Origin: Christensenella massiliensis
GTDB lineage: Bacteria > Bacillota > Clostridia > Christensenellales > Christensenellaceae
Assembly (NCBI GenBank): GCA_900155415.1
Contig: LT700187.1
Coordinates: 186,001-250,000, forward strand
Length of the DNA: 64,000 nt
Direction of reading: 5' to 3'
The notes under the pieces are model-generated. The model did no database searches, was not told the origin of the DNA, and saw only the letters and a program-made list of their open reading frames with translations. A program made the translations under genes and the position numbers. Shown here piece by piece: positions 14,884-39,594 of this stretch; within the stretch, counting starts at the first letter, position 1, and every line of letters begins with the position of its first letter.

Positions 14884-14911
14884 AAAAAACCGTCCTTGCC
14901 GGACGGTTTTT
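14884..14911 (-). terminator. Terminator of the mdh-fum-hdr-flx-frd operon
   Basis: Stem AAAAAACCGTCC / GGACGGTTTTT with loop TTGC, 6 bases after the frdA-like stop. On the minus strand it ends in a T-run. It closes the long operon that begins near 26600. Confidence 0.88.
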
Positions 14912-14917
14912 GATTTT

Positions 14918-16534
14918 TTATTTTTCTGCCTGCCATTTTGCGCGGCCATGCGTATAGGTCGGCAGAAGCAGAGGCGATACCTTATCGCTTACGATACCGG
15001 CCTCCTCCATTTCTTTTGCATAGGCTTCTATATGCCGGAGCGTCAGCTTGCCGTTCTTTACGGTTTTCGCTTTAGCCGAAGCATTCTGCCCCGCGTTCCG
15101 ACCGAACACGATCACGTCCAGCAGAGAATTGCCCATCAACCGGTTCCGGCCGTGTATCCCTCCTACAGCCTCGCCCGCAACGAACAGGTTCTCTACACCG
15201 CTCTGGCCGTCCACCGTGATATCGATCCCGCCGTTCTGATAATGCAGCGTCGGATAGACGAGGATCGGTACCTTGCGCATGTCGATATCGTATTTCAGAT
15301 ACATACGGAGCATCGCCGGGATACGCTTTTCAAGCGTGCCCTCTCCGTGGATCATATCGATCATCGGCGTGTCGAGCCATACGCCGCAGCCCTCCGGCGT
15401 TTCCACGCCCTTTCCACGCGCCTTGCATTCGCGAATGATAGAAGCGGCCGCAACGTCGCGCGTTTCCAGCGGATGCATGAACGCCTCGCCCTCCGAGTTG
15501 ATGAGCATCGCGCCGAGCGAACGCACTTTTTCCGTCACGAGCGCACCGAATATCTGTTCCGGAAACGCTACGCCCGTCGGATGGTATTGCAGGGTGTCCG
15601 CATATAGAAGCTTCGCTCCCACACGATAGGCAAGAATAAGCCCATCCGCCGTTGCCCCATAATGGTTTGAAGTCGGGAAGCCCTGATAGTGCAGCCGTCC
15701 CGCGCCGCCCGTCGCGAGTATAACGGTCTTTGCGCGTGCGATCCGGTATTCACCCGTTTCCATGTTCTGCAAAACGGCGCCTGCCGCCCTGCCGTCCTCG
15801 TCCAAAATCAGCTCTACCGCCGCCGTAAAATCAACGACGGGAATTCCACGGTTCCACACCTCGTCACGCAGTACGCGCATGATTTCCGCACCTGAATAGT
15901 CTCGCGCAGCGTGCATGCGCTTGCGGGATGTACCGCCGCCGTGCGTCGTGATCATCGTGCCGTCCGGCGCTTTATCGAACATCACGCCGAGGTCGTTGAG
16001 CCATTTGACTGCCCCCGGCCCCTCTGTCACAAGCTTTTTCAGCAGCTCCGGTTTATTGGCATAGTGTCCGCCGCCAAGCGCGTCAAGATAGTGGATCGCC
16101 GGGGAATCGTTTGCCTTATCGGCCGCCTGTATACCGCCCTCCGCCATCATGGTGTTCGCATCGCCAATGCGCAGCTTGGTCACGACCATCACGTTCGCGC
16201 CGCCGTTATGCGCTTCGATCGCTGCGGACGCACCCGCGCCGCCGCCGCCGATGATCAGCACGTCCACATCATAGTCAGGACGCTCAAGGTCGAACTCCAA
16301 CCCTTGGACGCGGCTGTTCGCCTGAAGCAGCGCCGCAAGCTCTTTCGGCACCTTATCTCCCTTATTCGGCCCGATCTGAAGAACATCAAAGCTGTCCATC
16401 TTATAATCCGGATGGAATTCTTCAAGCAGCCTATCCTTTTCGTCGGCGGTCATCCTCCTCGGTTCCATGCCGATCCTCTGTGCTCTCGTCGCCTCGACTT
16501 TCTTTGCCGAAGCAAGCATTTCCGGTGTAAACAT
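14918..16534 (-). CDS. Soluble fumarate reductase flavoprotein subunit (FrdA/TfrA-like)
   Basis: A 538-residue FAD flavoprotein predicted to reduce fumarate to succinate. The N-terminal GGGGAGAS dinucleotide fold starts near residue 95. Four catalytic positions known from FrdA/SdhA are kept: His in QYHPTG, Arg in LETRDVA, His in TLHYQNGG and Arg in GRNRLMGNS. The histidine that binds FAD covalently in membrane FrdA/SdhA (SHTxxAEGG) is asparagine here (ANTMMAEGG), so FAD should be non-covalent. There is no Tat signal or membrane anchor gene. An 80-residue N-terminal extension precedes the FAD fold. It is the last gene of the operon, 12 bases after the iron-sulfur subunit. Confidence 0.85.
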   Translation of the reverse strand: MFTPEMLASAKKVEATRAQRIGMEPRRMTADEKDRLLEEFHPDYKMDSFDVLQIGPNKGDKVPKELAALLQANSRVQGLEFDLERPDYDVDVLIIGGGGAGASAAIEAHNGGANVMVVTKLRIGDANTMMAEGGIQAADKANDSPAIHYLDALGGGHYANKPELLKKLVTEGPGAVKWLNDLGVMFDKAPDGTMITTHGGGTSRKRMHAARDYSGAEIMRVLRDEVWNRGIPVVDFTAAVELILDEDGRAAGAVLQNMETGEYRIARAKTVILATGGAGRLHYQGFPTSNHYGATADGLILAYRVGAKLLYADTLQYHPTGVAFPEQIFGALVTEKVRSLGAMLINSEGEAFMHPLETRDVAAASIIRECKARGKGVETPEGCGVWLDTPMIDMIHGEGTLEKRIPAMLRMYLKYDIDMRKVPILVYPTLHYQNGGIDITVDGQSGVENLFVAGEAVGGIHGRNRLMGNSLLDVIVFGRNAGQNASAKAKTVKNGKLTLRHIEAYAKEMEEAGIVSDKVSPLLLPTYTHGRAKWQAEK

Positions 16535-16546
16535 GTATCCGCCTCC

Positions 16547-17251
16547 TTAATCTTCGTCCGTCGGCGCCGTCGCCGTATCGCTCTCGATTTCCCTATGGTT
16601 GTAGAGTTCCTTCAGCTCCTCGATGGGCTTTGCCGCCACATCCTCCAAAAGCTGTGTAAAATCTCCGTGCTCAATATCGCGTACGCGCTGCGTCAAGTGC
16701 TTCGCTTCGGGCGCGATATATTTTCCGGTCAGCCGCCGGGCGAGCAGGGCTACCTGCGGGTGAGATATTTCCGCCGGGCAGCGCGCACTGCACGCTCCGC
16801 ACATTACGCAGTCAAACGAAAGCTCCGCGCATTTCTCATATTCCCCGCGCTGGGCGTGTGCGATATACTGCATGACCTTCAAATCCTGTGTGCAGGCCTT
16901 TGTGCAGGCGTTGCACCCAATACATTTATAAATTTCCGGATAAAGCTGCATCATGATCTGCTCGTCCGGGCGTACCTCTTCCATATCGTAAAGCGGCTTT
17001 ACGATCGGAAAATACGGCAATGTCGCAACATACATCCCATCCTCCACCGTCGTCTGGCACGCAAGGCAGAATTTGAGCGTATTGTCTCCTTTGATGCGGT
17101 AGATCGTCGTACACGCGCCGCAGAAGCCGTTGCGGCAGCCACACCCGCGCACCAGCTTATATCCTGCGTATTCCATCGCACCCATGATCGTAAGGCCCGC
17201 TGGAACGCTGTATTTCTTTCCAAACAGGAAGACGTTCACCATTTTCTCCAT
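16547..17251 (-). CDS. Fumarate reductase iron-sulfur subunit (FrdB/TfrB N-terminal type)
   Basis: A 234-residue electron-transfer subunit. The N-terminal [2Fe-2S] domain has CGCRNGFCGAC (about residues 33-43) and a later CLAC. The C-terminal half has two full [4Fe-4S] motifs, CIGCNACTKAC and CVMCGACSARCP, rather than the [3Fe-4S] site usual in membrane FrdB. It matches the front part of methanogen TfrB but lacks the fused CCG domains; in this operon those domains are the separate HdrB and HdrC proteins. The start is uncertain: ATG at 17251 is used, with ATG at 17242 as alternative. A TTG at 17275 is less likely. Confidence 0.83.
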   Translation of the reverse strand: MEKMVNVFLFGKKYSVPAGLTIMGAMEYAGYKLVRGCGCRNGFCGACTTIYRIKGDNTLKFCLACQTTVEDGMYVATLPYFPIVKPLYDMEEVRPDEQIMMQLYPEIYKCIGCNACTKACTQDLKVMQYIAHAQRGEYEKCAELSFDCVMCGACSARCPAEISHPQVALLARRLTGKYIAPEAKHLTQRVRDIEHGDFTQLLEDVAAKPIEELKELYNHREIESDTATAPTDED

Positions 17252-17275
17252 AACCTTCTCTGTCTCTCCTCTCAA

Positions 17276-18109
17276 TCAGTATTCGTCCGGCAGCTCTTCA
17301 AGCTCGTCACAGCGGAAAACCGGGCCGTCCTTGCATACATATTTGGAGCCGATGTTGCAGCGTCCGCATTTACCGACTCCGCATTTCATTCGCAGCTCCA
17401 TCGTCGTATAGACCTGCTTTTTATCAAAACCGAGCTCTGAAAGCGCGCCCAGAACGAATTTGATCATGATCGGCGGTCCGCATACGAGCGCCGTTTTATC
17501 CGTAGAAAAGCCGAGCTCCTTCACATAATTCGGAACAAAGCCGACGTGCCCGTCCCAGCCTTCCTGCTCCCTGTCGATCGTAAGATATACGTTCACGCCT
17601 TCCGTGTTCGCCCACTCGTTTCTGATTTCGTCGAAATCCACTAAATCGTCTTTGGAGCGCGAGCCGTAAACGATATCTATCTTCCCATAATTTTCACGGT
17701 AATGCCGTACATAATTGATGACCGACCGAAGCGGCGCAAGGCCGATCCCCCCCGCAATGAACAGCAGATCCTTTCCCTTGAGCTCCGTTTCCACCGGAAA
17801 CGCATTGCCATACGGCCCGCGTATCGTGATCTGCTGCCCTACGTCCATCTGGTGCAGCCAGTCTGTCAGACAACCGCATTTTTTGATGCTGAATTCCATA
17901 TATTCCGTATTGGTAGGCGAGGAAGTGATGGAAAACATCGCCTCTCCCACCCCCGGAATGGAAAGCATCGCGCACTGTCCGGGCATGTGCTGAAAGACAA
18001 CGCCGCCCTCCGGCGCCACTGCGCGGAACGTTTTTACGTCCGGCGTATCCTTTCTGATATCCGTAATGACCCCGATCTTTGGGATCAATGTGTCCTGTCT
18101 CATACTCAT
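17276..18109 (-). CDS. flxA: FAD/NAD(P)-binding subunit FlxA (AsrB/PyrK-like)
   Basis: A 277-residue ferredoxin-NADP reductase-fold protein. FAD contacts lie in RGPYGNAFP (about 96-104) and the NAD(H) site in GGIGLAPLRS (about 121). The C-terminus has a cysteine cluster CGVGKCGRCNIG...C (about 246-262) like the [2Fe-2S] site of PyrK. In known FlxABCD-HdrABC complexes this subunit takes electrons from NADH. It follows the FlxB gene with a 3-base gap. It is the expected NADH entry point for the complex. Confidence 0.85.
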   Translation of the reverse strand: MSMRQDTLIPKIGVITDIRKDTPDVKTFRAVAPEGGVVFQHMPGQCAMLSIPGVGEAMFSITSSPTNTEYMEFSIKKCGCLTDWLHQMDVGQQITIRGPYGNAFPVETELKGKDLLFIAGGIGLAPLRSVINYVRHYRENYGKIDIVYGSRSKDDLVDFDEIRNEWANTEGVNVYLTIDREQEGWDGHVGFVPNYVKELGFSTDKTALVCGPPIMIKFVLGALSELGFDKKQVYTTMELRMKCGVGKCGRCNIGSKYVCKDGPVFRCDELEELPDEY

Positions 18110-18112
18110 CTC

Positions 18113-19138
18113 TTACTTTCTCGCCTCCGCTCCCAAAGCCTTTGCCACTTTCACGATGTTCATGGAAATCGGGCATTTCGCAACACAGCGTCCGCATCCT
18201 ACGCACGAATACATCCCGTCGTTGTTCGCCGGAAAATATACGAGCTTGTGCATGAACCGCTGACGAAAGCGTTCTACCTGACTTTTGCGCGGATTTCCGT
18301 GCGCCATACGCGTAAAGTCCGAATACATGCAGGAATCCCAGCACCGGTAACGCCTGATCTCCTTTCCGGTATCAAAATCCCGGATATCGTAGCATTGGCA
18401 GGTCGGGCATATATAAGTACATGTTCCGCAGCCGAGACACGCGCGAGAAAGCTCCGCCCACTGCTCAGAGCCAAACAGCTTTTCCGTCGCGTTTCCGTCG
18501 ATCCCCGTCAAATCGAGGTCCTTTAGGGGAAGCCTTTCCATGGTTTCTTCAAGCGCACGGACCGCCGGCTCGATCTCTGCGTCGTTCGCCTCCTCCAAAG
18601 GCGTGAGGCCTGCCAAAAATGCCTCTCCTTTTTCTGTGACCGCTTTCAGATAGAGAAAGCCGCCTGATAGCCATGTGGAAACGTCTCCTCCCGGCTGTGC
18701 GGGATCGATCCCAAACACGGAACAAAAGCAGGTTTCCTCCGGCGCAGTGCACGCAAGTGTGATCACGACGCCATTTTCCCGCCGCGCCCGGTAATACGTA
18801 TCTACCGGCTCGGAAAGAAATACCCGGTCCAAAACCTCCATCGCGCGGGCATCGCACGCACGTACCCCGAAAACGGCAAACGGTTCATCCGGCGTGTCCG
18901 GCGCATCGATCTCTATCTCTTTTCCCTTCATTTTGAAAGCGACAATATCTTCGCTCTGCGGGAAAAACAGGTCTTTCGGAGATTTCACGGTATGAAGGGC
19001 GTCAATGTCCACATCAGCGCCTTCCTGCCATCTTCCGAAATTGACCGCTCCTCTTTTCTTCAAAGGGAGATATAATGCCCGCTCTGCAGCCATTGCGGAA
19101 TAAAACTCCGAAATGCGGTCCATCGCTATTTTCTGCAT
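18113..19138 (-). CDS. flxB: FlxB-type 4Fe-4S protein (AsrA-like)
   Basis: A 341-residue iron-sulfur protein like anaerobic sulfite reductase subunit A. Two [4Fe-4S] motifs lie in the C-terminal half: CLGCGTCTYICPTCQC and CVGCGRCVAKCP, with extra cysteines between (RCWDSCMY). The N-terminal 200 residues match the AsrA-type domain with ACDARAMEVLD. It relays electrons between FlxA and the rest of the Flx-Hdr complex. The ATG at 19138 overlaps the upstream stop (TGATG) and follows GGAGGG by about 10 bases. Confidence 0.8.
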   Translation of the reverse strand: MQKIAMDRISEFYSAMAAERALYLPLKKRGAVNFGRWQEGADVDIDALHTVKSPKDLFFPQSEDIVAFKMKGKEIEIDAPDTPDEPFAVFGVRACDARAMEVLDRVFLSEPVDTYYRARRENGVVITLACTAPEETCFCSVFGIDPAQPGGDVSTWLSGGFLYLKAVTEKGEAFLAGLTPLEEANDAEIEPAVRALEETMERLPLKDLDLTGIDGNATEKLFGSEQWAELSRACLGCGTCTYICPTCQCYDIRDFDTGKEIRRYRCWDSCMYSDFTRMAHGNPRKSQVERFRQRFMHKLVYFPANNDGMYSCVGCGRCVAKCPISMNIVKVAKALGAEARK

Positions 19139-20115
19139 CAATTCTTCCCTCCTTCCATTTTGCCCGGTTCCACGTCGTCCTGCGTATAGCTTACGAGAGG
19201 CCACGGAGAGCTGTCGTCCGCCCCCGCCTGATATTCGCCGTAATTTTCATTGATATCTTTTATGAATTTGCGGTTCAAAAGATGCAGCGGTATTCCCTGC
19301 GGACATACGCGGCTGCACTCTCCACAGTCTGTGCACCGCCCCGCCACATGGAACGCGCGGATAATATGGAACATATTTTCTTCAAACGTATCTACATTCG
19401 CTTTGCTGCTGACGCCCGACGCATCGTTGTCGAACACGCACTTCAGACAGGAGCATGCGGGGCATACGTTCCGGCACGCATTGCAGCGTATGCATTTGGA
19501 AAGCTCGCTGCGCCAAAACTCAAACCGTTCGTCCGGCGTCATCTGCATAAGCTTTTCCACCATGCCAAAACGGTCGTGCTTGCGCAGCTCTACCGGCGCC
19601 GGATCTTCGACCGTATCGTCCGCCGCCATATATTCCGGTCCCTTGCAGGACAGGCAGCGTTCCAGCAAGACGTCGTTTAATTCGCATTCCTTTTCTCCGT
19701 ACATCGTCTGCACGGTCAGCCTGCCGCCGTCCTCAGCGATGCTTTCGATCCCTTTGATGCCTTTCACATTCAGCTTTTCCACATCTGCTATGCCGTGGCA
19801 CGGAACTCCCAGCACATAGACCTTCTCCCGGTCGATCCGGTGCTCCTTTATGAGCTGGTTGAAGCTATACGTATCGCAGGGCTTCAAAAGTGCCAGTACT
19901 CTGCCCTCTTTTTTACTTTCCGCAATGAGATATTTGCTCAGATTCGCGCCGCAAAAGCTGTTGTACACGAGGCGGTCAATATCCTCTTCCGTAAAAACAG
20001 CCGGCGTGTTGTCATAGCAATATTCGCCTTTTTCCCAACCGAGCACCCTGTCTACCGTACCGTCCGCAAGCAGGGCGCGCGCCTTTTCCTTGATTGCCTT
20101 TTCTACCGCTTGCAT
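19138..20115 (-). CDS. flxC: FlxC-type 4Fe-4S protein
   Basis: A 325-residue iron-sulfur protein. A Cys-containing N-terminal domain (LALLKPCDTYSFNQLI; GVPCHG; RCLSCKGPEY) resembles the FrhB/AsrA-like group. The C-terminal half has CIRCNACRNVCPACSC and CTDCGECSRVCPQG cluster motifs. It overlaps flxD by 13 bases and flxB by 1 base, a tightly coupled set. It is paralogous in layout to FlxB. Assignment as FlxC rests on this neighbourhood plus the twin-cluster plan; the exact subunit letter could be exchanged with flxB. Confidence 0.72.
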   Translation of the reverse strand: MQAVEKAIKEKARALLADGTVDRVLGWEKGEYCYDNTPAVFTEEDIDRLVYNSFCGANLSKYLIAESKKEGRVLALLKPCDTYSFNQLIKEHRIDREKVYVLGVPCHGIADVEKLNVKGIKGIESIAEDGGRLTVQTMYGEKECELNDVLLERCLSCKGPEYMAADDTVEDPAPVELRKHDRFGMVEKLMQMTPDERFEFWRSELSKCIRCNACRNVCPACSCLKCVFDNDASGVSSKANVDTFEENMFHIIRAFHVAGRCTDCGECSRVCPQGIPLHLLNRKFIKDINENYGEYQAGADDSSPWPLVSYTQDDVEPGKMEGGKN

Positions 20116-20552
20116 CTCAGGTCCTCCAGTCTCTTGTTCTCACCCAAATGATAAATCGTTTCTACAAATTCGTTCATGACCTGCGCGAAACGCTGTCCTT
20201 CCGCAGCAGACACCCATTCCACCCGCGTACGCCCCTTTTCGATGCCGAGGTATTCCAGCATGCTGAATAAAAGCGCCATGCGGCGGCGCGCATAATAATT
20301 CCCCGTCGAATAGTGACAGTCGCCCGGATGGCACCCGTTGATGATCACACCATCCGCGCCGCGCTGGAACGCCCGCAGGATAAACAGCGGATTCACCCTG
20401 CATGAGCAAGGCACGCGGATGATTTTCACATTCGCCGGATAATTGAGGCGGCTCGTTCCTGCGAGGTCCGCGCCGGCATAACTGCACCAGTTGCAGCAGA
20501 ATGCGACGATCAAAGGCTTAAACTCGCCCGTTTCCTGCTTTTCTATCTGCAT
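20103..20552 (-). CDS. flxD: MvhD-like hydrogenase/Hdr delta subunit (FlxD)
   Basis: A 149-residue MvhD-family protein that bridges HdrA to a partner electron donor. Conserved cysteines: FCCNWCSYAGAD (about residues 16-27), RVPCSCRV (about 44) and GCHPGDCHY (about 74-82), the [2Fe-2S] MvhD pattern. Start ATG at 20552 has a GGAGGTGG site 7 bases upstream and overlaps the hdrA stop by 10 bases. In methanogens MvhD links hydrogenase to HdrA; here the partner would be FlxA-C, because no hydrogenase gene is present. Confidence 0.88.
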   Translation of the reverse strand: MQIEKQETGEFKPLIVAFCCNWCSYAGADLAGTSRLNYPANVKIIRVPCSCRVNPLFILRAFQRGADGVIINGCHPGDCHYSTGNYYARRRMALLFSMLEYLGIEKGRTRVEWVSAAEGQRFAQVMNEFVETIYHLGENKRLEDLRCKR

Positions 20553-22537
20553 ATCGCGTCCACCTCCGCCATGATTTGTTGATTGGTAAAGCCCTTGAGG
20601 TCCATTGCTCCGGACGGGCACGTTACTGTGCACGCGCCGCAACCCTGACATACGGCCTCATTGACCTGCGCCACTCTGCGCGTCTCGCGCACGCCGTGGT
20701 CGTTGATTTCTTTTTCCACATATTCGATCGCGCCGTACGGGCACACATTTTGGCAGGCCGAGCAGCCGTTGCACAAAAGCTCGTTGCTCCCTGCCACGCA
20801 CGGGTTGCACGTCAACTTGTCCTTGGCAAGCAGGCCGATCACCTTTGATGCCGCGGCGCCCGCCTGCGCCACCGTTTCCGGGATATCCTTCGGCCCCTGA
20901 CATACGCCCGACAGGAACACGCCCGCCGTCGGGCTTTCCACCGGCCTCAGCTTGGGATGCGCCTCCGTGAAAAAGTCGTTGGTATCCATGCTCGCCGTCA
21001 GCATCGTTGCCAGCGGCCGTGCGCTCTTATCCGGCTCGATCGCCGCCGCGAGGATCACCATGTCCGCATCGATATGCATCTGCGTACCGCTGATAAGGTC
21101 GGACGCCTGCACCTTGAGCACGCCGTCCTCCTCCGCGACCTTCCCGACCATGCCCTTGACATAATTCACGCCATACTGCTCCACTGCGCGGCGCTGGAAC
21201 TCATCGAAATTTTTGCCCGGCGTCCGTACGTCGATATAGAATACATAAACTTCTGTATCCGGATATTTTTCCCGTACAAGCATCGCGTGCTTTGCGGTAT
21301 ACATGCAGCATATTTTGGAACAATACGGCTTTCCGCAGTCTGTCGTATCGCGCGATCCTACGCATTGCACGAACACCAGCGTTTTCGGATGCTTGCCGTC
21401 CGACGGACGGAGCAATACGCCTTTCGTCGGCCCTGCCGCATTCATCAGCCGCTCAAATTCAAGACTCGTCACTACGTCCGGGTTATCCGCATAGCCAAAC
21501 TCGTCAAAATTCTCCAGTGAGATCGGGTTGAAGCCTGTTGCAGCAATGATCGCTCCATACTGCTGCGTAATGATCTCATCCTGCTGCTCGAAATCGATCG
21601 CATGCGACGGACAACTCTTTTCGCACAGTCCGCATTTTCCCGTTTTGTAATGGATGCATGCTTCATGGTCGATCACAGGTATATTAGGCACTGCCTGTGC
21701 AAACGGCACATAGATCGCTCCGCGCGTATTCAGCCCCATATTGAATTCGCTCTTTGCTTTCCGGGACGGGCACTTTTCCGTGCACACACCGCAGCCTGTA
21801 CACAGGTCTTCCTTTACATTCCGCGCTTTTTTGCGGATATCCACCGTAAAGTTACCCACAAAGCCGGATATCTTTTCCACCTCGCTGTAGGTATACAGAT
21901 GTATTTTTTCATGCTGTGCAGCGTCCACCATTTTAGGCGTGAGGATGCAGGCTGCACAGTCGAGCGTTGGAAACGTCTTGTCGAGCTGCGCCATTTTTCC
22001 GCCAATAGTCGGCGACTTTTCGACAATATCTACCTCGTAACCTGCGTCTGCAATATCGAGCGCCGTCTGAATGCCCGCAATACCGCCGCCGATCACGAGC
22101 GCCCGTTTTACGACGGGACTCTCCCCTGCCGTCAGGGGCGCGTTCAAATTCAGCTTGGCGATCGCCGCCTTTGCCAGTATGATCGCCTTTTCCGTGCCCT
22201 CAGCCTTATCTTTATGGATCCACGAGCACTGTTCACGGATATTTGCGATCTCGACCATATACGGATTCAGTCCCGCTGCCGCTGCCGTCTTGCGAAACGT
22301 CGCTTCATGCATCCGCGGCGAGCATGAGCAGACCACAACGCCCGTAAGCCCGTGCTCTTTGATGGCATCCTGGATCTTCGTCTGCCCGACCTCAGAACAC
22401 ATATATTGGTAATCCGTCGCGAGAACGACCCCCGGTTCGTTTTTGACTGCTTCCGCGACCGCCGCGACATCGACCGTCGCAGCGATATTGCTTCCGCACC
22501 AGCAAACGAAAACTCCTATTCTCTGCAAATAAATCAC
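20543..22537 (-). CDS. hdrA: Heterodisulfide reductase-like subunit A (HdrA)
   Basis: A 664-residue FAD and multi-cluster protein, the site of flavin-based bifurcation in Hdr complexes. FAD fold GGGIAGIQTALDIADAG is at about residues 150-166, with IGGKM after it. Four ferredoxin motifs are visible: CTGCGVCTEKCP, CGLCEKSCP, CNGCSACQNVCP and CQGCGACTVTCP. An N-terminal cysteine motif CWCGSN also fits the family. The predicted start is GTG at 22537 with AAGGAG very close; a downstream TTG (22528) or ATT cannot be excluded. A 132-base spacer separates it from hdrC, the only large gap in this part of the operon apart from fumC-hdrB. Confidence 0.9.
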   Translation of the reverse strand: MIYLQRIGVFVCWCGSNIAATVDVAAVAEAVKNEPGVVLATDYQYMCSEVGQTKIQDAIKEHGLTGVVVCSCSPRMHEATFRKTAAAAGLNPYMVEIANIREQCSWIHKDKAEGTEKAIILAKAAIAKLNLNAPLTAGESPVVKRALVIGGGIAGIQTALDIADAGYEVDIVEKSPTIGGKMAQLDKTFPTLDCAACILTPKMVDAAQHEKIHLYTYSEVEKISGFVGNFTVDIRKKARNVKEDLCTGCGVCTEKCPSRKAKSEFNMGLNTRGAIYVPFAQAVPNIPVIDHEACIHYKTGKCGLCEKSCPSHAIDFEQQDEIITQQYGAIIAATGFNPISLENFDEFGYADNPDVVTSLEFERLMNAAGPTKGVLLRPSDGKHPKTLVFVQCVGSRDTTDCGKPYCSKICCMYTAKHAMLVREKYPDTEVYVFYIDVRTPGKNFDEFQRRAVEQYGVNYVKGMVGKVAEEDGVLKVQASDLISGTQMHIDADMVILAAAIEPDKSARPLATMLTASMDTNDFFTEAHPKLRPVESPTAGVFLSGVCQGPKDIPETVAQAGAAASKVIGLLAKDKLTCNPCVAGSNELLCNGCSACQNVCPYGAIEYVEKEINDHGVRETRRVAQVNEAVCQGCGACTVTCPSGAMDLKGFTNQQIMAEVDAICR

Positions 22538-22547
22538 TACTCCTTTA

Positions 22548-22643
22548 TCAGCTGATCAGCAGTTCATCGTTTGGGCGCCTGCCCGAAATCCTGACAGGCA
22601 CTTTGCCAAACGCCGAAAAGCCTAACCGTTTCTTTCCTTTCAT
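22548..22643 (-). CDS. Possible 31-residue small protein between hdrC and hdrA
   Basis: An ATG at 22643 opens a 31-codon frame ending TGA just before the hdrA ribosome site. The peptide starts MKGKKRLGF and ends ELLIS; it is basic at the front and has no cysteines or membrane segment. A weak AGGA lies 7 bases upstream, inside a hairpin (22644-22668). It could be a real small protein, a leader peptide that sets hdrA translation, or chance. Conservation in related operons would decide. Confidence 0.22.
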   Translation of the reverse strand: MKGKKRLGFSAFGKVPVRISGRRPNDELLIS

Positions 22644-22668
22644 ACGGCAGTCCTGTCATAACTGCCGT
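22644..22668 (-). other. Intercistronic hairpin after hdrC
   Basis: ACGGCAGT / ACTGCCGT, 8 pairs, 9-base loop, one base after the hdrC stop and without a T-run. It is not a terminator. It may stabilise or mark a processing point between hdrBC and hdrA-flx transcripts. Confidence 0.5.
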
Positions 22669-22669
22669 C

Positions 22670-23062
22670 TTACTTCCCATATTTTCTGAACGCGCTGGTG
22701 ATCGCCTGCTGCGGTATATTTTCATCCAGCTTTCCCGGAATCTCCTGCGCATTCAGATGATTGTTCCCTTTTTCGCGGATCACGAGCAATCGTACCGCCT
22801 CAATGAGCTTCGCCGGCTCCACGCCGCGCGGGCAGCGTTCCATGCACGCAAAGCAGGAAAGGCACTGCCATAAAGACTCCGACCGCATCAGCGGCTCAAT
22901 ATTCCCCTTCTTCACCATCGAGACGAATTGATGCGGGTGATATTCCATTTCGTCATAGGCAGGGCACGTTCCCGAGCATTTTCCGCATGTCATGCATTTG
23001 CCCGGATCGACGCCGCTCATTCTGAGCACCTGTTCCTTGAGGTCCTTCTGCGCCTCCGTCAC
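22670..23062 (-). CDS. hdrC: Heterodisulfide reductase-like subunit C (HdrC)
   Basis: A 130-residue protein with two [4Fe-4S] motifs, CMTCGKCSGTCP (about residues 23-34) and CLSCFACMERCP (about 68-79). HdrC passes electrons between HdrA and HdrB. It starts at a GTG that overlaps the hdrB stop (GTGA). The length is shorter than methanogen HdrC (about 180) but normal for bacterial Hdr/Flx loci. Confidence 0.88.
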   Translation of the reverse strand: MTEAQKDLKEQVLRMSGVDPGKCMTCGKCSGTCPAYDEMEYHPHQFVSMVKKGNIEPLMRSESLWQCLSCFACMERCPRGVEPAKLIEAVRLLVIREKGNNHLNAQEIPGKLDENIPQQAITSAFRKYGK

Positions 23063-23859
23063 TGCGCTCCGCCTCCTTTCTTAAGCCCCAGCGCCTCTGC
23101 AAGCAATTCCGTGAAATAATAGACCGAAACGCCTGTCTCAGCGCTGTTTTCCTCTAAATTATACATGCAAAGCGGACACGCCGTCACAACAGCCTCCGCT
23201 CCATGCTTTTCTGCCGACCGCAAAACGTTTCCGCTTTTCTTTTTCGGCGCCTCCTTGTCTTCCACGACTACATATCCGCCGCAGCACTCGTTGCGGTAAG
23301 GATATTTTACCGGAGTCGCGCCAATCGCGGCAATAAAATCCTCCAAGATCGACGGATTTTCCGGGTTGTCAAACTGCATCTCCTTTGCAGGCCGCAGCAG
23401 CAGACAGCCGTAATATGCCCCGATCTTTCTTCCCTTAAGCGGGGCTGTCACCTTTTTCTTCAGCTCGCTCCAGCCTACGCGGTCGCGCAGCATCTCAAGA
23501 TAATGCAGTACGGTCGTCTCGCCCGCATACTCTTCCTCAAGCTGCAGATAACGGTTCACCTTTCCGCGCATATCACTGTTTGACTGCATGTCGCCGTTTA
23601 CGCGCTTTATTACATGATGACAGGCGGAGCAAAGCGTAACCAGCTCGCCGCCTTCTTTTTTCGCGTCCGCAAGCGCCCGCACCGCCGACAGCTTCGTCGC
23701 GATCTCGTCGCTCGCCATCGGATAGACCGCGCCGCAGCACTGCCATTCCGGCAGCTCACAGAGGTCTATCCCCAGCGCCTGCGCGGACTCCCGCGCATAT
23801 CGATCCAGCTCTTTTGCCTTTGTTTTCAAAGTGCAGCCCGGATAATAACTAAATTTCAT
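23059..23859 (-). CDS. hdrB: Heterodisulfide reductase-like subunit B (HdrB)
   Basis: A 266-residue protein with two complete CCG domains, the ligands of the non-cubane [4Fe-4S] clusters. First set: YPGC (Cys 9), QCCG (about 41-42) and CSAC (about 78-81). Second set: YYGC (about 153), ECCGG (about 193-194) and CPLC (about 234-237). In methanogens HdrB reduces the CoM-CoB disulfide; this host is not expected to have those thiols. Here it may hand electrons to the fumarate reductase subunits of the same operon. It follows fumC after 133 bases. Confidence 0.88.
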   Translation of the reverse strand: MKFSYYPGCTLKTKAKELDRYARESAQALGIDLCELPEWQCCGAVYPMASDEIATKLSAVRALADAKKEGGELVTLCSACHHVIKRVNGDMQSNSDMRGKVNRYLQLEEEYAGETTVLHYLEMLRDRVGWSELKKKVTAPLKGRKIGAYYGCLLLRPAKEMQFDNPENPSILEDFIAAIGATPVKYPYRNECCGGYVVVEDKEAPKKKSGNVLRSAEKHGAEAVVTACPLCMYNLEENSAETGVSVYYFTELLAEALGLKKGGGAQ

Positions 23860-23927
23860 GTTGCCTCCAAACTCTATCGCTCGCCCCGTCGGGCAGGTTA
23901 ATCAATTCGAGCCAGCCTCCCTTTATC

Positions 23928-23984
23928 GGCAGAGCCTGCATCGTCATAAGGCAGATTTTCCGCCCTATACCATAAAGCTCTGCC
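23928..23984 (-). other. Structured spacer between fumC and hdrB
   Basis: GCTCTGCC pairs with GGCAGAGC (8 pairs) around an inner hairpin GGCGGA-AAA-TCTGCC. No T-run follows, so read-through into hdrB is expected. Such a structure could give the mdh-fumC and hdr-flx-frd parts different mRNA stability. Confidence 0.4.
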
Positions 23985-23992
23985 GTTCCCGG

Positions 23993-25357
23993 TCATACCA
24001 TTTCTTCCGGGTGGAACACCTCGTCAAACTTCTCCGGCGTCAGGAAGCCGAGCGCCACACAGGCTTCTTTCAGGGAAATATTTTCCCGAAAGGCCTTTTT
24101 GGCTGTTTTTGCAGCATTGTCATAGCCGATATATGGGTTGAGTGCCGTCACCAGCATCAGTGAATTGTGCAGGTTGTGGGCCATTTTCTCCCGATTGGCT
24201 TTAATGCCTGCCGCGCAGTTTTTATTGAACGACGCGATCCCGTCTGCAAGAAGCCGCACGGATTGCAGAAAATTATAAATGAGCACCGGCATGAACACAT
24301 TCAGCTCAAAATTCCCCTGCGAGGCCGCCATTCCGACCGCAACGTCGTTTGCCATCACCTGCACGGCCACCATCGTCATGGCTTCGCATTGGGTCGGATT
24401 TACCTTACCCGGCATAATAGAGCTTCCCGGCTCATTTTCCGGGATAAATATCTCACCGAGCCCGCAGCGCGGACCGCTCGCCAGCCACCGTACATCGTTC
24501 GCGATCTTCATCAAATTCGCCGCCAGCGCTTTGAGCGCGCCGTGTGCAAATACCAGATCGTCTTTCGACGTAAGCGCATGAAACTTGTTCTCTGCCGTCA
24601 CAAAATCTTTTCCGGTGAGAATCCCTACCTGCTTCGCGATCTCCTCTGCAAACCCCTCGGGCGCATTCAGGCCGGTTCCTACTGCCGTGCCGCCGAGCGC
24701 AAGCTCCCTAAGACCGGGCAGCGCCGCTTTCAGCATTTCCCTCGTCTTTTCGAGCATATTACGCCAACCGCTGATCTCCTGTGAAAATGCGATGGGCGTT
24801 GCATCCTGCAAATGGGTACGTCCGCTTTTTACAATGCCTTCGTTTTCTTTTTCAAGGCGCTTCATCGTTTTGATCAGCGCATCCATCTGCGGCATCAGCT
24901 TGTCTTCTATCCCAAGCACCGCGGCAATATGCATTGCCGTAGGGAACGTATCGTTCGAGCTCTGCGATTTGTTCACGTCGTCGTTCGGATGCAGCAGCTT
25001 TTCTCCTGCGATCTCGTTCCCGCGGTTTGCGATCACCTCGTTCGCGTTCATATTGGACTGCGTACCGCTGCCTGTCTGCCAGACCACAAGCGGAAAATGC
25101 TCGTTCAGCTTCCCTGCGATCACCTCATCGCACGCCGCCGCAATCGCGTCTTTCTTTTCCGCGCTGATTTTGCCAAGGTTAAAATTCGCGATCGCCGCCG
25201 CTTTCTTCAGTATCCCGAACGCATGCGTGATCTCGCGCGGCATCACCTCGCCGCCGATTTCAAAATTCTGTAAACTGCGCTGCGTCTGCGCCGCCCAATA
25301 TTTATCCGCCGGAACTTTCATTTCTCCCATCGAGTCCCGTTCGATACGGTATTCCAT
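23993..25357 (-). CDS. fumC: Class II fumarase
   Basis: A 454-residue oxygen-stable fumarase that interconverts malate and fumarate. The superfamily signature [16 protein letters not shown] is at about residues 314-329 and the substrate-site [11 protein letters not shown] near 186. Length is normal. It begins 14 bases after the dehydrogenase gene with GGAGGG upstream. With the upstream dehydrogenase and downstream fumarate reductase it makes a reductive C4 branch: malate to fumarate to succinate. An aspartase identity is unlikely from the FumC-like N-terminus and length. Confidence 0.92.
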
Positions 25358-25371
25358 ATAGTTCCCTCCAA

Positions 25372-26319
25372 TCAGATATTGACCTGTTTGATAACGCCTT
25401 TAAGGACGTCCGCACTGTGCTGGAGCTTCTCGAGTTCCTGTTCCGTCATTGCGGGAAGCACGTTGCCGCAAATTCCGTCCGGCCCAAAAATAAACGGGAT
25501 CGAGAGGCATACGTCGTCAATTCCATATTCCCCGTGCAGCATGGAGGATACCGTCATAACGCGGTTTGAGCTTCCGAACAGGCAGTCTACGATATGACAT
25601 ACCGAAATGGCGATCGCATAGAACGTCGCGCCCTTGCGTTCGATGATCTTACCGCCGGATGTGCGGATATACTGCTCGATCTCATCCGGATTGATCTTTG
25701 CCTTGATACGTCCCGCAAAATTGAAGCCTCCCTTGTCGTCCAAAATCTCTACGCTGCCTACGCGCGCCGTAGACCACGGCACGAAAGAGCTGTCGCCATG
25801 CTCGCCCATAACATAGGCATGGATGCTCTTCTGGCTGAGCCCGAGGTATTCCGCAAGACGCGAACGCAGGCGGGCCGTATCGAGGATCGTTCCCGAGCCA
25901 ATGATCCGGCTTTCCGGCAGCCCTGATACCTTGCAGAACGTGTAGGTCAGCACATCCACCGGGTTGCTGACAAGAATATATATCGCATCCGGAGCATATT
26001 TGACGATCTCCGGCGTGATCTCACGGATCACGTTTACATTCGTCTGCGCAAGGTCGATACGGGACTGTCCGGCTTTCCGCGGTACGCCCGAAGTGATGAC
26101 CACCACATCGGAGTCCTTTGCATCCTCATAGGTGCCCGCATAAATCGAGATCGGCGAACAAAACGGCGTGCCCTGCCGGATATCCATCGCCTCTCCCAGC
26201 GCTTTCTCGGTATTGACGTCGATCATGACGATCTCGGAAGCAAGCCCGTTTACCGCCATCGTATACGTGATCGTGGAGCCAACGCTTCCTGCGCCGATTA
26301 TCGTTACTTTCCTGCTCAT
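25372..26319 (-). CDS. mdh: Malate dehydrogenase built on a lactate dehydrogenase framework
   Basis: A 315-residue NAD-dependent 2-hydroxyacid dehydrogenase: GAGSVGS NAD motif (residues 9-15), catalytic His in MGEHGDS (about 177), active-site SNPVDVLTY. Overall it looks like L-lactate dehydrogenase (GEHGDS, KGATFY near residue 231). But the residue that decides the substrate, Gln102 in LDH numbering, is Arg here (residue 81, in [10 protein letters not shown]; codon at 26077-26079). That change is known to turn LDH into malate dehydrogenase, and fumC follows directly. Malate/oxaloacetate is therefore the likelier substrate; lactate activity is not excluded. It is the first gene of the operon, with AGGAGG upstream. 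Confidence 0.78.
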
Positions 26320-26598: not shown

Positions 26599-26635
26599 TT
26601 GTGTATATTTTAACAAATTATGATGCCCTTGTAAA
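26599..26635 (-). promoter_or_regulatory. Promoter of the mdh-frd operon with a Rex-like dyad
   Basis: On the minus strand TTTACA (26635-26630) and TAAAAT (26612-26607) are 17 bases apart, a good sigma-A promoter. The 18-base dyad TTGTGTATATTTTAACAA (26599-26616, plus strand) covers the -10. It matches the clostridial Rex pattern TTGTTAA-N4-TTAACAA in 12 of 14 half-site positions. Rex senses NADH/NAD and controls fermentation genes, which fits. The leader to mdh is about 280 bases and holds no convincing gene. The promoter is seen; Rex control is inference. Confidence 0.6.
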
Positions 26636-26751: not shown

Positions 26752-26787
26752 AAAGAAAAAGGCCAATAAGAGTTGGCCCTTTTCTTT
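26752..26787 (-). terminator. Terminator after etfA
   Basis: Stem AAAGAAAAAGGCCAA / TTGGCCCTTTTCTTT with a 6-base loop and one mismatch. One arm overlaps the etfA stop codon. It ends the sucD-rpoN-bcd-etfBA transcript just before the promoter region of the next operon. Confidence 0.82.
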
Positions 26788-27811
26788 ATGCCTCGTTCTT
26801 GGCGGAGATGGCCTGCTTCACCTGCTCTGTAAAAAGCGGCAATATTTTCGTTACGTCTCCTACTACGCCATAATCCGCCACTTCGAAGATCGGTGCATAT
26901 TCATCCTTGTTGATCGCAATGATGATATCCGAGTCCTCCATGCCCGCAAGATGCTGGATCGCCCCCGAAATACCGCAGGCAATGTAAAGATTCGGACGAA
27001 CTGTCTTGCCCGTCTGGCCGACCTGCCTGTCCTTTTCCACCCAGCCCGCGTCCACGCACGCACGCGAAGAACTTACCGTCGCGCCGTTTCCAAACGCGGC
27101 CGCAAGGTCCTCCAAAAGCTTGAAGTTTTCCGGGCAGCCCATGCCCCGTCCGCCCGAAACGAGCACCTTTGCATCCTGAATATCCATCTTATCGCTGACT
27201 TTTTTCACGATGTCGAGTATCTCTACATTGAAGCTTTCCTGCGGAATATCCACTTTATAATTCTCCACCTTCGCGGAAGAAGCCTCCGCCGGATGAATGC
27301 GCTGCATCACGCCGGGGCGTACCGTAGCCATCTGCGGCCGGAATTCCGGGCAGATGATCGTCGCCATGATGTTTCCGCCAAACGCAGGACGCGTCATGCG
27401 CAGATTCTTTGTTTCCGGATCGATCTCAAGTCCCGTACAATCTGCCGTAAGGCCGGTATGCACGCGCGCAGATACGCGCGGCGCAAGATCGCGGCCGATC
27501 GCCGTCGCTCCATAAAGCACCACTTCCGGCTTTTTCTCCCGTATGATCTGCGTCAGAACATGAGCGTACGGCTCCGTCATATAAACTTTCAGCCCCGGAT
27601 CGTCCGCGAGGATCACATTGTCCGCGCCATAACGTCCGAGCTTTTTTGCCATGTCCCCGATTTCTGAACCAAGGACGACCGCCGTCACCTCTGTTCCGAG
27701 GTCTTTTGCAAGCTCTCTCGCCTTGCCGACCAGCTCGAGCGATACGCCCGCAAGCTTGCCGTCCTCCTGCTGTGCGAATACGAATACGCCTTTATAATCC
27801 TGTATATTCAT
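26786..27811 (-). CDS. etfA: Electron transfer flavoprotein alpha subunit
   Basis: A 341-residue EtfA. The C-terminal FAD domain has [10 protein letters not shown] (about residues 221-230), [19 protein letters not shown] (about 264-282) and the end-domain [12 protein letters not shown]. It works with EtfB and butyryl-CoA dehydrogenase in clostridia to couple crotonyl-CoA reduction by NADH to ferredoxin reduction. The ATG at 27811 is used; an in-frame GTG at 27832 overlaps the etfB stop and would add 7 residues. Last gene of its operon. Confidence 0.93.
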
Positions 27812-27828
27812 TGTATCACCACTTTCCG

Positions 27829-28611
27829 TCACAGTACGAACTTACTGCGGAGCGAGTCCATCAGGAATTCCACGGAATCCTGAACATCTGTATTCACGAC
27901 TGTACCCGCCGCCTTAAGAGGCTTCGTAAAGGAACGCCATACCCGCGTGGGCGATCCCTTAAGGCCAATGTTCGTCCGGTCTACGTCAAGGTCCTCCAGC
28001 GTCCAGACCGCAACCTCTTTTTCGCGGTACGCATCCCATATCCCCATCGGCGTCATATACCGCGGCTCATTCAGCTCCGCCAGCGCCGTTATGAGGCACG
28101 GCATTTTTGCTTTCAAAATATGGTACCGGTCCTCGTACTGCCGTTTTACGATGATGCTGTCTCCTTCCACCTCCAGTTCTTCCGCATAGCTGATATTCGG
28201 AAGATGAAGGTGCTCGGCAATCTGCGGCCCGACCTGTGCCGTATCGCCGTCAATCGCCTGCCGTCCTGTGATAATCAAATCAAACGGCAGCTTTTTGAGC
28301 GCTGATGCAAGCGTTGAAGATGTCGCCCATGTATCCGCCCCGCCGAATGCCCGGTCGGTCACGAGGATCGCTTCATCCGCTCCCATTGCAAGCGCTTCGC
28401 GCAGAGCGAGGTCCGCCTGCGGCGGCCCCATGGAGATCACGCTGACCTTTGCTCCCGTTTTATCCTTGATCCTCAGGGCTGCTTCAAGGCCTGCCTTATC
28501 GTCCGGATTGATAATGGAGGGAACTCCCTCGCGAATGAGCGTGCCCGTTTTCGGATCGAGCTTTACTTCATTCGTATCCGGTACCTGCTTGATACAAACA
28601 ACTATATTCAC
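27829..28611 (-). CDS. etfB: Electron transfer flavoprotein beta subunit
   Basis: A 260-residue EtfB with the family start CIKQVPDTNEVKLD and the EtfB signature region (about residues 120-175) including TGRQAIDGDTAQVGP. In the bifurcating Bcd-EtfAB complex this subunit carries the second flavin near the NADH site. It lies 18 bases after bcd and is coupled to etfA. Order bcd-etfB-etfA is the usual clostridial one. Confidence 0.93.
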   Translation of the reverse strand: MNIVVCIKQVPDTNEVKLDPKTGTLIREGVPSIINPDDKAGLEAALRIKDKTGAKVSVISMGPPQADLALREALAMGADEAILVTDRAFGGADTWATSSTLASALKKLPFDLIITGRQAIDGDTAQVGPQIAEHLHLPNISYAEELEVEGDSIIVKRQYEDRYHILKAKMPCLITALAELNEPRYMTPMGIWDAYREKEVAVWTLEDLDVDRTNIGLKGSPTRVWRSFTKPLKAAGTVVNTDVQDSVEFLMDSLRSKFVL

Positions 28612-28629
28612 TCTCTTTTCCCTCCTGCC

Positions 28630-29769: not shown

Positions 29770-29851
29770 ATCGTTCTCCTAATGTTTTGCCCCCGTCTCT
29801 GCCGCGGGCAGCCTATACGGCGCGCGCATCCTGCCGGACCGCCGCGCTTCT

Positions 29852-31120: not shown

Positions 31121-31133
31121 GTCTTATTTTCCT

Positions 31134-32492: not shown

Positions 32493-32607
32493 TTCTACAT
32501 CCTCCTAAATTTTTTTATTTCATTAATTTTATATACAGTTTTACCTTTACTATTATAGAGGTTTTTCCAAAAAATTCATAGTAAAGTAAGTAAAAAAAGT
32601 TATTTTT

Positions 32608-32620
32608 ATCACAAAGTGAT
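32608..32620. promoter_or_regulatory. 13-base perfect dyad between sucD and cat1
   Basis: ATCAC-AAA-GTGAT sits in the AT-rich 247-base gap between the divergent sucD and cat1 genes. It is a plausible operator for a regulator acting on both promoters. A -10-like TATAAT for sucD lies at 32557-32552 with a poor -35. The regulator is unknown. Confidence 0.35.
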
Positions 32621-32671
32621 TCCTAAGTTTTGAAACGGATTTTGGGGGATGCAAAAAGGCGGGCGGCAGTG

Positions 32672-32701
32672 TATAATATAGAATTGTGATAATTGTAACA
32701 T
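32672..32701 (+). promoter_or_regulatory. Promoter and Rex-like dyad of cat1
   Basis: A consensus TATAAT lies at 32672-32677 with a poor -35. At 32684-32701, over the expected start point, TTGTGATAATTGTAACAT matches the Rex pattern in 10 of 14 half-site positions. A further GCGCA-CTGGC-TGCGC hairpin (32703-32717) lies in the leader. The -10 is seen; Rex control is inference. Confidence 0.4.
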
Positions 32702-32739
32702 TGCGCACTGGCTGCGCGCCTGAAACGGAGGGGAATGTT

Positions 32740-34206: not shown

Positions 34207-34214
34207 ACTGCAAT

Positions 34215-34248
34215 AAAAAAGGCATGGTTCACCACCCATGCCTTTTTT
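34215..34248. terminator. Bidirectional terminator between cat1 and the response regulator gene
   Basis: Stem AAAAAAGGCATGG / CCATGCCTTTTTT with an 8-base loop lies between convergent genes, with A- and T-runs on both sides. It can terminate cat1 (plus) and the abfD-to-regulator operon (minus). Confidence 0.87.
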
Positions 34249-34268
34249 ATTGCCATTATAAGCCTTTT

Positions 34269-34946: not shown

Positions 34947-34975
34947 ATCTGCGTTTCTCCTCAAGCCTTCATCAA

Positions 34976-36088: not shown

Positions 36089-36102
36089 AGTCTTTCTCCT
36101 CC

Positions 36103-37410: not shown

Positions 37411-37426
37411 TTGAGCTTATCTCCTT

Positions 37427-37988: not shown

Positions 37989-38057
37989 TTCCCCATCTCT
38001 GCATACAGGCCGCGGCTCGGGCAGAAGCCCCGTCCGCGGCCAACGTATGCAGCAAAA

Positions 38058-39577: not shown

Positions 39578-39594
39578 TGCAATTATCGTGCCAA
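39578..39594 (-). promoter_or_regulatory. Sigma-54 (-24/-12) promoter of abfD
   Basis: On the minus strand TTGGCACGATAATTGCA (39594-39578) matches every defined position of the consensus YTGGCACGrNNNTTGCW, with GG and GC 10 bases apart. The start point should be near 39568, giving a leader of about 60 bases. rpoN and an AAA activator are encoded in the same region. This is the only such site found in front of a catabolic gene here. Confidence 0.9.

Follow-up and report, generated by a model that had tools for sequence, protein, structure and literature searches.

The 64,000-nucleotide stretch of the Christensenella massiliensis genome analyzed here (contig LT700187.1, positions 186,001 to 250,000; hereafter, the window) contains an operon of eleven genes, mdh-fumC-hdrB-hdrC-hdrA-flxD-flxC-flxB-flxA-frdB-frdA, which combines genes of a putative malate dehydrogenase and a fumarase with a complete set of Flx-Hdr electron transfer subunits and with the two subunits of a fumarate reductase, FrdA and FrdB (together, FrdAB). 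The operon is real, conserved and of a kind that has already been proposed; what is new is the comparative support for it (co-occurrence and invariant residues) and its metabolic setting in Christensenella. Within the class Clostridia, FrdAB and Flx-Hdr are well supported as a functional unit. We favor, with moderate confidence, the view that a soluble, quinone-independent FrdAB serves as the high-potential exit of an electron-bifurcating Flx-Hdr complex.

The gene order had been proposed in a first-pass annotation made from the nucleotide sequence alone, and both the open reading frames (ORFs) and the protein families agree with it. Families were assigned using Pfam and NCBIfam (Pfam only for fumC; NCBIfam and PDB sequences only for mdh), and the C. 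massiliensis genome was searched as one contig of 2,560,186 bases. The eleven ORFs all lie on the minus strand. The junctions between them range from a 13-bp overlap to a 133-bp gap, and a purine-rich stretch resembling a ribosome-binding site precedes each of the eleven chosen starts, as judged by eye. Better starts than the ends of the ORFs were chosen for flxD (around 20552), flxB (19138) and, probably, frdB (17251). The features of the operon, in window coordinates, are as follows.

25372..26319, minus strand: mdh, probable malate dehydrogenase on an L-lactate-dehydrogenase scaffold, with Arg81 at the substrate-specificity position
23993..25357, minus strand: fumC, class II fumarase (Pfam)
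23059..23859, minus strand: hdrB, two CCG domains, expected to hold two non-cubane clusters
22670..23062, minus strand: hdrC, ferredoxin-like subunit
20543..22537, minus strand: hdrA, flavin adenine dinucleotide (FAD) and ferredoxin motifs; putative bifurcating subunit
20103..20552, minus strand: flxD, electron transfer subunit of the MvhD/FlpD type; likely start 20552 in an ORF open to 20651
19138..20115, minus strand: flxC, Fe-S subunit, distant relative of FdhB of methanogen complexes
18113..19138, minus strand: flxB, Fe-S subunit, relative of sulfhydrogenase beta; likely start 19138 in an ORF open to 19204
17276..18109, minus strand: flxA, FAD/NAD(H)-binding subunit, putative entry site of NADH
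16547..17275, minus strand: frdB, motifs for one [2Fe-2S] and two [4Fe-4S] clusters; likely start 17251
14918..16534, minus strand: frdA, fumarate reductase flavoprotein with an N-terminal extension of about 90 residues; Asn127 replaces the His that binds FAD covalently
14885..14911, minus strand: hairpin of 11 pairs with a T-run directly behind frdA, probable operon terminator

The co-occurrence of the two modules was followed in a sample of 391 class genomes, of which 53 contain FrdB, 57 contain FlxC and 53 contain both. In 51 of the 53 genomes the two genes are on one contig, and in 50 of these 51 they are spaced by 1.87-2.05 kb; in the remaining genome (G668) they are 5.7 kb apart, and frdB-frdA lies in front of hdrBCA-flxDCBA. 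Of the four genomes with FlxC only, one is a bin of 62% completeness and the matches in the other three are weak and partial. The test of co-occurrence suggested in the first-pass annotation thus finds FlxC in 53/53 genomes with FrdB, and both genes on one contig in 51/53. Since FrdB occurs in 35 of the 222 genera sampled (relatedness was handled at genus level only), the pattern is not that of one clone.

Gene order was compared in 80 named loci, which are the best 80 of at least 569 relatives (at least 598 stretches), that is, the nearest ones and not a random sample. The whole eleven-gene order is present in 33 of the 80; the remaining loci deviate by contig ends, by the absence of mdh or fumC or, in two cases, by an mdh located behind frdA. 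In 78 loci the nearest homologue of a window gene upstream of frdB is flxA, and the other two loci start within 200 bases upstream of frdB. The locus strings count homologues of window genes only, and inserted foreign genes would not show in them. As can be seen from the recurrence of the same order in many other genomes, the operon is more than a chance arrangement. In 32 loci containing all eleven genes, the pairwise distances of FrdA correlate with those of FlxB (0.76), FlxC (0.70) and HdrA (0.67), compared with 0.18 for fumC; the coefficients carry neither a species-tree control nor a significance test. The functional unit of FrdAB and Flx-Hdr in the class is well supported because its co-occurrence, its conserved order and the correlated divergence of FrdA point the same way.

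Several loci with this gene set carry labels of other phyla (Treponema/Spirochaetes, Synergistaceae and Planctomycetota: L154, L161, L163, L171, L121, L155, L104, L114 and L150). The full eleven-gene order is present in four spirochaete-labeled loci. Two Synergistaceae- and two Planctomycetaceae-labeled loci have the hdrB-to-frdA part in this order but lack mdh-fumC in front, and one more Planctomycetota-labeled contig contains a part of the operon and is cut. In a quick FrdA tree, computed without bootstrap and with long-branch warnings, the proteins from spirochaete-, Synergistota- and Planctomycetota-labeled loci fall among those of Clostridia on unstarred forks (93 for Synergistota/Planctomycetota; 94 and 87 for the spirochaete-labeled ones). 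This suggests that the operon set was transferred as a unit, if the labels are right; some may be mislabeled bins of metagenome-assembled genomes.

FrdA is about equally distant from Escherichia coli FrdA (31% identity), SdhA (32%) and NadB (31%). Residues His318, Glu335, Arg338, His431 and Arg465 are invariant in all 120 aligned sequences, that of the window included, in agreement with the earlier claim that the catalytic residues of fumarate reductase are kept. The column that holds the covalent-FAD His of E. coli FrdA and SdhA is Asn in 120/120 sequences of the alignment; the His typical of complex II is therefore missing from FrdA. About 90 residues precede the FAD motif at the N-terminus. 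The FAD_binding_2 model has 18 matches in the genome, and frdA alone covers the whole of it.

In FrdB, twelve cysteines are invariant in 124/124 sequences and form the patterns of one [2Fe-2S] and two [4Fe-4S] clusters, the cluster type being deduced from the motifs. Subunit B of complex II carries a [2Fe-2S], a [4Fe-4S] and a [3Fe-4S] cluster; FrdB, in contrast, has two [4Fe-4S] patterns. Among FrdB sequences of the Clostridia type, Cys149 is present in 86/86 and Cys70 in 80/86. Pfam detects no CCG domain in FrdB. The protein shares 96% identity with FrdB of Christensenella intestinihominis and 90% with FrdB of C. hongkongensis. The residue alignments omit 18 short loci, five duplicates of named loci and frames shorter than a set limit, and they may still include near-identical genomes.

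A membrane anchor gene was said to be missing, and none is located within the operon, to which this statement applies, since no genome-wide search for an anchor was made. UbiA was found in none of the six Christensenella genomes and in all 14 control genomes, and a quinone route is therefore not expected in this genus. We conclude that FrdAB is probably a quinone-free, soluble fumarate reductase.

The FlxABCD-HdrABC set has all the expected parts: FlxA contains FAD- and NAD-binding domains, FlxD is of the MvhD type, HdrA has FAD-type and ferredoxin matches, HdrC is a ferredoxin-like protein and HdrB contains two CCG domains. The ten cysteines of these two domains are invariant in 81/81 aligned sequences, the window included, and HdrB is the sole frame with CCG matches found in the genome. 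The cofactor sites that had been attributed to HdrB and FlxA are thus recovered with Pfam, as are the FAD and ferredoxin matches of HdrA, but the number of ferredoxin motifs in HdrA, four, comes from visual reading only. The best solved relatives of HdrA are the HdrA subunits of methanogen heterodisulfide/ferredoxin reductases.

The operon would encode the reductive C4 branch leading from oxaloacetate through malate and fumarate to succinate. We infer that its Flx, Hdr and Frd products form a physical complex in which NADH would deliver electrons to FlxA, and that these would pass through FlxB/FlxC and FlxD to the FAD of HdrA. At this site the pair would be bifurcated. One electron would move downhill via HdrC/HdrB and FrdB to the FAD of FrdA, where fumarate would be reduced, and the other would move uphill to ferredoxin (Fd), the sum being 2 NADH + fumarate + 2 Fd(ox) -> 2 NAD+ + succinate + 2 Fd(red). 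By arithmetic on standard potentials, this reaction yields -33 to -53 kJ/mol for ferredoxin at -500 to -400 mV. The input of NADH and the output of reduced ferredoxin are suggested by the homologous parts and by these feasible energetics. A diffusible thiol relay between Hdr and Frd is unlikely: with HdrB as the sole protein of its type found in the genome and a FrdB devoid of CCG domains, such a relay would lack its second half. The simplest route is therefore direct transfer through HdrC/HdrB to FrdB, to which the hdrC-hdrB-frdB neighborhoods described below also point. Rnf would convert the reduced ferredoxin into an ion gradient, and the gene of an RnfD-type membrane subunit is present in 6/6 Christensenella genomes. 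A carboxylase domain of the pyruvate-carboxylase/oxaloacetate-decarboxylase type is likewise present in 6/6 genomes, and the protein carrying it is a possible source of oxaloacetate.

A number of observations weigh against this coupling, first of all those from the wider phylum. Full-length FrdB was found in 39 of 398 phylum genomes, that of C. massiliensis included; 35 of the 39 have a FlxC-like match, which favors the coupling, and four have none. A complete flx-hdr set adjoins frdBA in five of the 38 other loci. In 11, a hdr/flxD set with a long HdrA-like protein is present (two of these loci are cut by contig ends). In five, hdrC-hdrB lies directly before frdB with hdrA and flx not seen nearby, one of them (L046) being a 3.8-kb contig cut on both sides. 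In the remaining 17, no Hdr/Flx homologue is located beside FrdB. Seven of the 17 genomes with unlinked FrdB have hdrBCA-flxDCBA elsewhere (one set is cut before flxA), and in another five the only HdrB matches have 37% identity or less, with a FlxC-like match 2.5-3.3 kb away; these five genomes probably carry more distant Flx-Hdr sets. No HdrB match was obtained in five of the 38 genomes, one of which (G130) has FlxC-like matches and four of which have neither. Given the loci without Hdr/Flx and the genomes without HdrB or FlxC matches, it follows that FrdAB can take electrons elsewhere. FlxC-like matches, in turn, are present in 138/398 phylum genomes, 103 of them without FrdB, and Flx-Hdr is therefore not tied to fumarate everywhere.

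Points of the same tendency come from closer relatives. FrdB is present in 11 of 18 genomes of the family, several of the other seven being incomplete. In the 32 loci mentioned above, FrdA correlates with mdh (0.53) at the level of HdrB (0.52) and FlxA (0.51), and FrdB correlates weakly with HdrA (0.38) and FlxC (0.31). No Frd-Hdr or Flx-Hdr complex is among the solved-structure matches of FrdA, FrdB, FlxC, HdrA, HdrB and FlxB, and no fusion of FrdB to an Hdr or Flx part was found in the loci. A fusion candidate in L150 was rejected: its long FrdB frame is just open sequence before FrdB, overlapping flxA. A shared pathway would explain the co-occurrence and the common operon just as well as a shared complex would. 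Finally, acetate, butyrate and H2 are reported from three Christensenella species, and succinate is not mentioned in the available portion of that report, whose assay covers C1-C8 fatty acids (PMC7002349).

The loci of the phylum in which FrdB is unlinked have other neighbors, among them malic enzyme and fumarase (L034) and pyruvate carboxylase (L062). Of the nine neighboring proteins compared, one (L040:1-300) was an arbitrary 100-residue stretch that matched malic enzyme, and it was not used. In other unlinked loci FrdBA adjoins a NapC/NirT-type cytochrome (L067) or FMN-binding/ferredoxin proteins (L043), which suggests a respiratory input to FrdAB in these genomes. Very long HdrA-like proteins are encoded beside frdBA at L038:12125-16609 and L047:12535-15747, and the former bears a domain resembling the glutamate synthase small subunit; as a side reading, such proteins may provide an alternative electron entry for the same type of FrdAB. 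Taken together, FrdAB looks like a catalytic module accepting several input devices, with the Flx-Hdr version throughout the class sample.

The unlinked loci bear on the possibility that the operon encodes two enzymes, with Flx-Hdr reducing a disulfide or another carrier and making reduced ferredoxin, and FrdAB being fed by a separate soluble donor, for example, reduced ferredoxin. Besides the 17 of 38 loci without linked Hdr/Flx and the five of 38 genomes without an HdrB match, this arrangement is favored by the proposal, in the available text of PMC4215793, that the Hdr/flox of Desulfovibrio alaskensis feeds the sulfite pathway via a carrier like DsrC. We nevertheless consider it unlikely for Christensenella: FlxC accompanies FrdB in every FrdB-containing genome of the class sample, a single HdrB-type protein is encoded in the genome, and FrdB itself lacks a CCG domain.

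Flx-Hdr and Frd could also form a complex that does not bifurcate and passes all electrons from NADH to fumarate, the energy being lost as heat. Such a transfer is strongly downhill (-68 kJ/mol at standard state, same arithmetic), but simple transfer should require fewer Fe-S subunits, HdrA keeps the FAD motif and ferredoxin-type clusters and has HdrA of methanogen heterodisulfide/ferredoxin reductases as its best solved relatives, and an Rnf-type gene is present for ferredoxin. This makes a plain NADH:fumarate oxidoreductase improbable. Operation of the complex in reverse in vivo, with succinate oxidized at the expense of NAD+ and reduced ferredoxin, is more improbable still. Enzymes of this kind are reversible in principle, but Asn occupies the place of the FAD-binding His in all 120 FrdA sequences, and E. 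coli mutants without covalent FAD retain fumarate reduction and lose succinate oxidation. The linkage to mdh and fumC and, elsewhere in the phylum, to genes of malic enzyme, fumarase and pyruvate carboxylase also points to the reductive direction. Lastly, the proposal that FrdA is a NadB-like enzyme, such as an L-aspartate oxidase, for which its 31% identity to E. coli NadB could be cited, was rejected as having practically no chance of being right: its partner NadA was found in 0/6 Christensenella genomes (and in 12/14 controls), which argues against a role in NAD synthesis, FrdA has HPTG in place of the HPTA motif of E. coli NadB, and it is encoded with a dedicated FrdB next to mdh-fumC.

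In NCBIfam, the Mdh protein passes the cut-offs for L-lactate dehydrogenase and, by 3 bits, that of one malate dehydrogenase subfamily model as well; its closest solved relatives in the PDB sequence comparison are lactate dehydrogenases. Position 102 of lactate dehydrogenases decides between lactate and malate, and Arg at this position specifies malate. Because Arg is found there in 40/40 aligned operon sequences, the window included, malate dehydrogenase is still the better call despite the lactate dehydrogenase scores. The earlier naming of the gene thus stands, but the family models are split and the solved relatives are on the lactate side.

Upstream of mdh, the window contains, at 26786-39623, further genes that may extend the pathway from succinate to butyryl-CoA, as well as a promoter candidate.

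26607..26635, minus strand: extended -10, sigma-70-like promoter candidate upstream of mdh (consensus match only)
26786..27832, minus strand: etfA
27829..28611, minus strand: etfB
28630..29769, minus strand: acyl-CoA dehydrogenase of the bcd or acryloyl-CoA-reductase type
29852..31120, minus strand: rpoN, sigma-54
31134..32492, minus strand: CoA-acylating aldehyde dehydrogenase, probable sucD (succinate-semialdehyde dehydrogenase), specificity from context
32686..34206, plus strand: succinyl-CoA:acetate CoA-transferase of the cat1 type, above the TIGR03458 and NF053853 cut-offs
34976..36088, minus strand: iron-type alcohol dehydrogenase, probable 4-hydroxybutyrate dehydrogenase, specificity from context
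36103..37410, minus strand: CoA-transferase, probable 4-hydroxybutyrate CoA-transferase, specificity from context
38058..39506, minus strand: abfD, 4-hydroxybutyryl-CoA dehydratase (solved chain 1u8v, E 7e-237)
39578..39593, minus strand: exact sigma-54 -24/-12 consensus site before abfD, 0 mismatches

The etfA, etfB and acyl-CoA dehydrogenase genes correspond to the Bcd-EtfAB step that had been noticed nearby. The best model for the acyl-CoA dehydrogenase is the acryloyl-CoA reductase AcrC (536 of 640 bits), and its substrate may be crotonyl- or acryloyl-CoA. The assignment of abfD, judged by its similarity to 1u8v (named gamma-aminobutyrate metabolism dehydratase/isomerase), is firm. In 6/6 genomes of the genus, C. 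massiliensis included, bcd-etfBA lies upstream of mdh and a sucD homologue further up. A 4-hydroxybutyrate dehydrogenase homologue is present in 4/6 (it is not in the stretches fetched for G401 and G402), and abfD in 2/6, namely C. massiliensis and G400, two other stretches having ended before its position. No homologues of etfA, bcd, sucD or abfD were found in the 13-20 kb fetched from each of 15 other class genomes, among which there were one weak alcohol dehydrogenase match and one cat1-like gene. In G401 (L231:14129-16237), a LysR-type regulator gene and two short membrane-protein ORFs, chromate-transporter-like as judged by eye, are located between etfA and mdh.

A candidate gene set for conversion of oxaloacetate to butyryl-CoA is therewith encoded within about 25 kb. 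In Christensenella, succinate would probably be passed via the adjacent 4-hydroxybutyrate genes to crotonyl-CoA and butyryl-CoA, and we infer that C4 acids flow to butyrate in this genus. The available part of PMC13106387 lists a complete succinate-semialdehyde pathway for Christensenella and assigns the order Christensenellales to the class Clostridia. We tentatively propose, as a possibility held with less than even confidence, a wider scheme in which the island at about 14.9-39.6 kb would carry the full route from oxaloacetate to succinate and on through succinyl-CoA, 4-hydroxybutyrate and crotonyl-CoA to butyryl-CoA. Two NADH-bifurcating machines, Flx-Hdr-Frd and Etf-Bcd, would act in series and charge ferredoxin for Rnf, succinate would be an intermediate and not a product, and throughout the class fumarate, reduced by FrdAB, would be the natural acceptor that has long been missing for bacterial Flx-Hdr. 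Succinate as an intermediate would agree with the products reported from cultures, namely acetate, butyrate and H2.

Regulatory signals of the operon were compared with those of shuffled sequences. The hairpin behind frdA has the most pairs of the 16 terminator-like matches in the region, which as a class do not exceed shuffles (16 versus a mean of 14.4); the claim of one terminator at the end of the operon therefore stands as far as a hairpin with a T-run is indeed present, but such matches are no more frequent than expected by chance. The same is true of sigma-70-like matches (12 versus 10.3 in the region). A regulatory RNA in the mdh leader was rejected, the lone Rfam hit having 20.4 bits, far under the gathering score of 55, and no repeats were found in this leader. 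Control of the operon by sigma-54 was rejected as well: the window contains 21 matches versus a shuffle mean of 28.6, and none is in the mdh leader. The sigma-54 site before abfD is the only exact one in the window and has the same letters in a second species, G400. A second site of this type with one mismatch (39798-39813) is divergent and lies between abfD and a sigma-54 activator gene; rpoN itself is located inside the 4-hydroxybutyrate/butyrate cluster.

According to the available text of a 2014 report, Hdr/flox had never been studied biochemically and its redox partners needed to be identified (PMC4215793). The near-perfect pairing with FrdAB in Clostridia names fumarate as a candidate acceptor of Flx-Hdr, and Christensenella is a cultivated genus. 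If the proposed coupling is true, fumarate reduction in quinone-free gut anaerobes would be an energy-conserving cytosolic step, and formation of succinate or butyrate from C4 acids would conserve more energy than with a plain NADH-fumarate reductase. Of the NCBIfam models listed (25 of 50 for frdA, 22 for frdB), not one exceeds its own cut-off; because of this, and because mdh scores above lactate dehydrogenase cut-offs, such pathways may be under-counted in gut metagenomes.

Two related enzyme systems are TfrAB and Bcd-EtfAB. Methanogen TfrAB is a soluble FrdA-type flavoprotein wired to HdrB/HdrC-like parts; its TfrB carries CCG domains, and its electron donors are coenzyme M (CoM-SH) and coenzyme B (CoB-SH). 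The FrdB of C. massiliensis differs by the absence of a CCG domain, and FrdA and FrdB score well below the cut-offs for TfrA (332.5 of 718 bits) and TfrB (38.7 of 385 bits). The first-pass reading of the system as an NADH-fed, split TfrAB is thus well supported, within the class, as regards a functional unit with Flx-Hdr, but the "split TfrAB" part is only roughly right, given these scores, the two [4Fe-4S] motifs that FrdB has of its own and the five phylum genomes with FrdB that gave no HdrB match. Bcd-EtfAB splits the electrons of NADH between a C4 acceptor and ferredoxin. The energetic logic would be the same in the Flx-Hdr-Frd system and the flavoprotein machinery is different; in Christensenella, the bcd-etfBA genes are directly upstream.

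Related gene sets are described, as far as the accessible parts of the sources go, in other bacteria; in the open-access literature searched, no biochemical proof of a Flx-Hdr-Frd complex was found. Desulfovibrio FlxABCD-HdrABC (Hdr/flox) has the same seven subunit types, NADH as the donor and HdrA as the putative bifurcating unit, but its proposed acceptor is a DsrC-type disulfide or the sulfite pathway, and fumarate reductase is a separate menaquinol enzyme (PMC4215793). A 2014 paper on D. alaskensis connects fumarate reduction to Hdr-Flox and Rnf in its title. For bacteria and symbionts with the reverse tricarboxylic acid cycle, it has been suggested that Flx-Hdr forms a direct complex together with TfrAB and Kor (PMC6315080). 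In the korABCD-tfrAB-flxABCD-hdrABC clusters of tubeworm symbionts and Thioflavicoccus, likened here by their description only, Frd-type genes are interspersed with flx-hdr as in Christensenella, but the context is carbon fixation and kor genes are interspersed as well (PMC6315080).

The system most similar to ours is the "succinate operon" of Pseudoclostridium thermosuccinogenes (PMC7282089, which cites a 2019 preprint). It contains fumarase, Flx-Hdr and fumarate reductase genes and is assumed to couple succinate formation to ferredoxin reduction, so that the earlier statement that no complex of this make-up had been described does not hold. Under CO2 limitation, the P. thermosuccinogenes operon goes up about 4-fold, although the change does not reach significance for each of the subunits. 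By composition and order alone, the Christensenella operon is of this type: fumarase, a Flx-Hdr block (the locus-tag range in P. thermosuccinogenes fits seven genes) and two frd genes follow each other in the same order. The P. thermosuccinogenes operon ends with a putative succinate-transporter gene, whereas frdA of Christensenella is followed by something else; Christensenella adds mdh in front and has the 4-hydroxybutyrate/butyrate genes next door.

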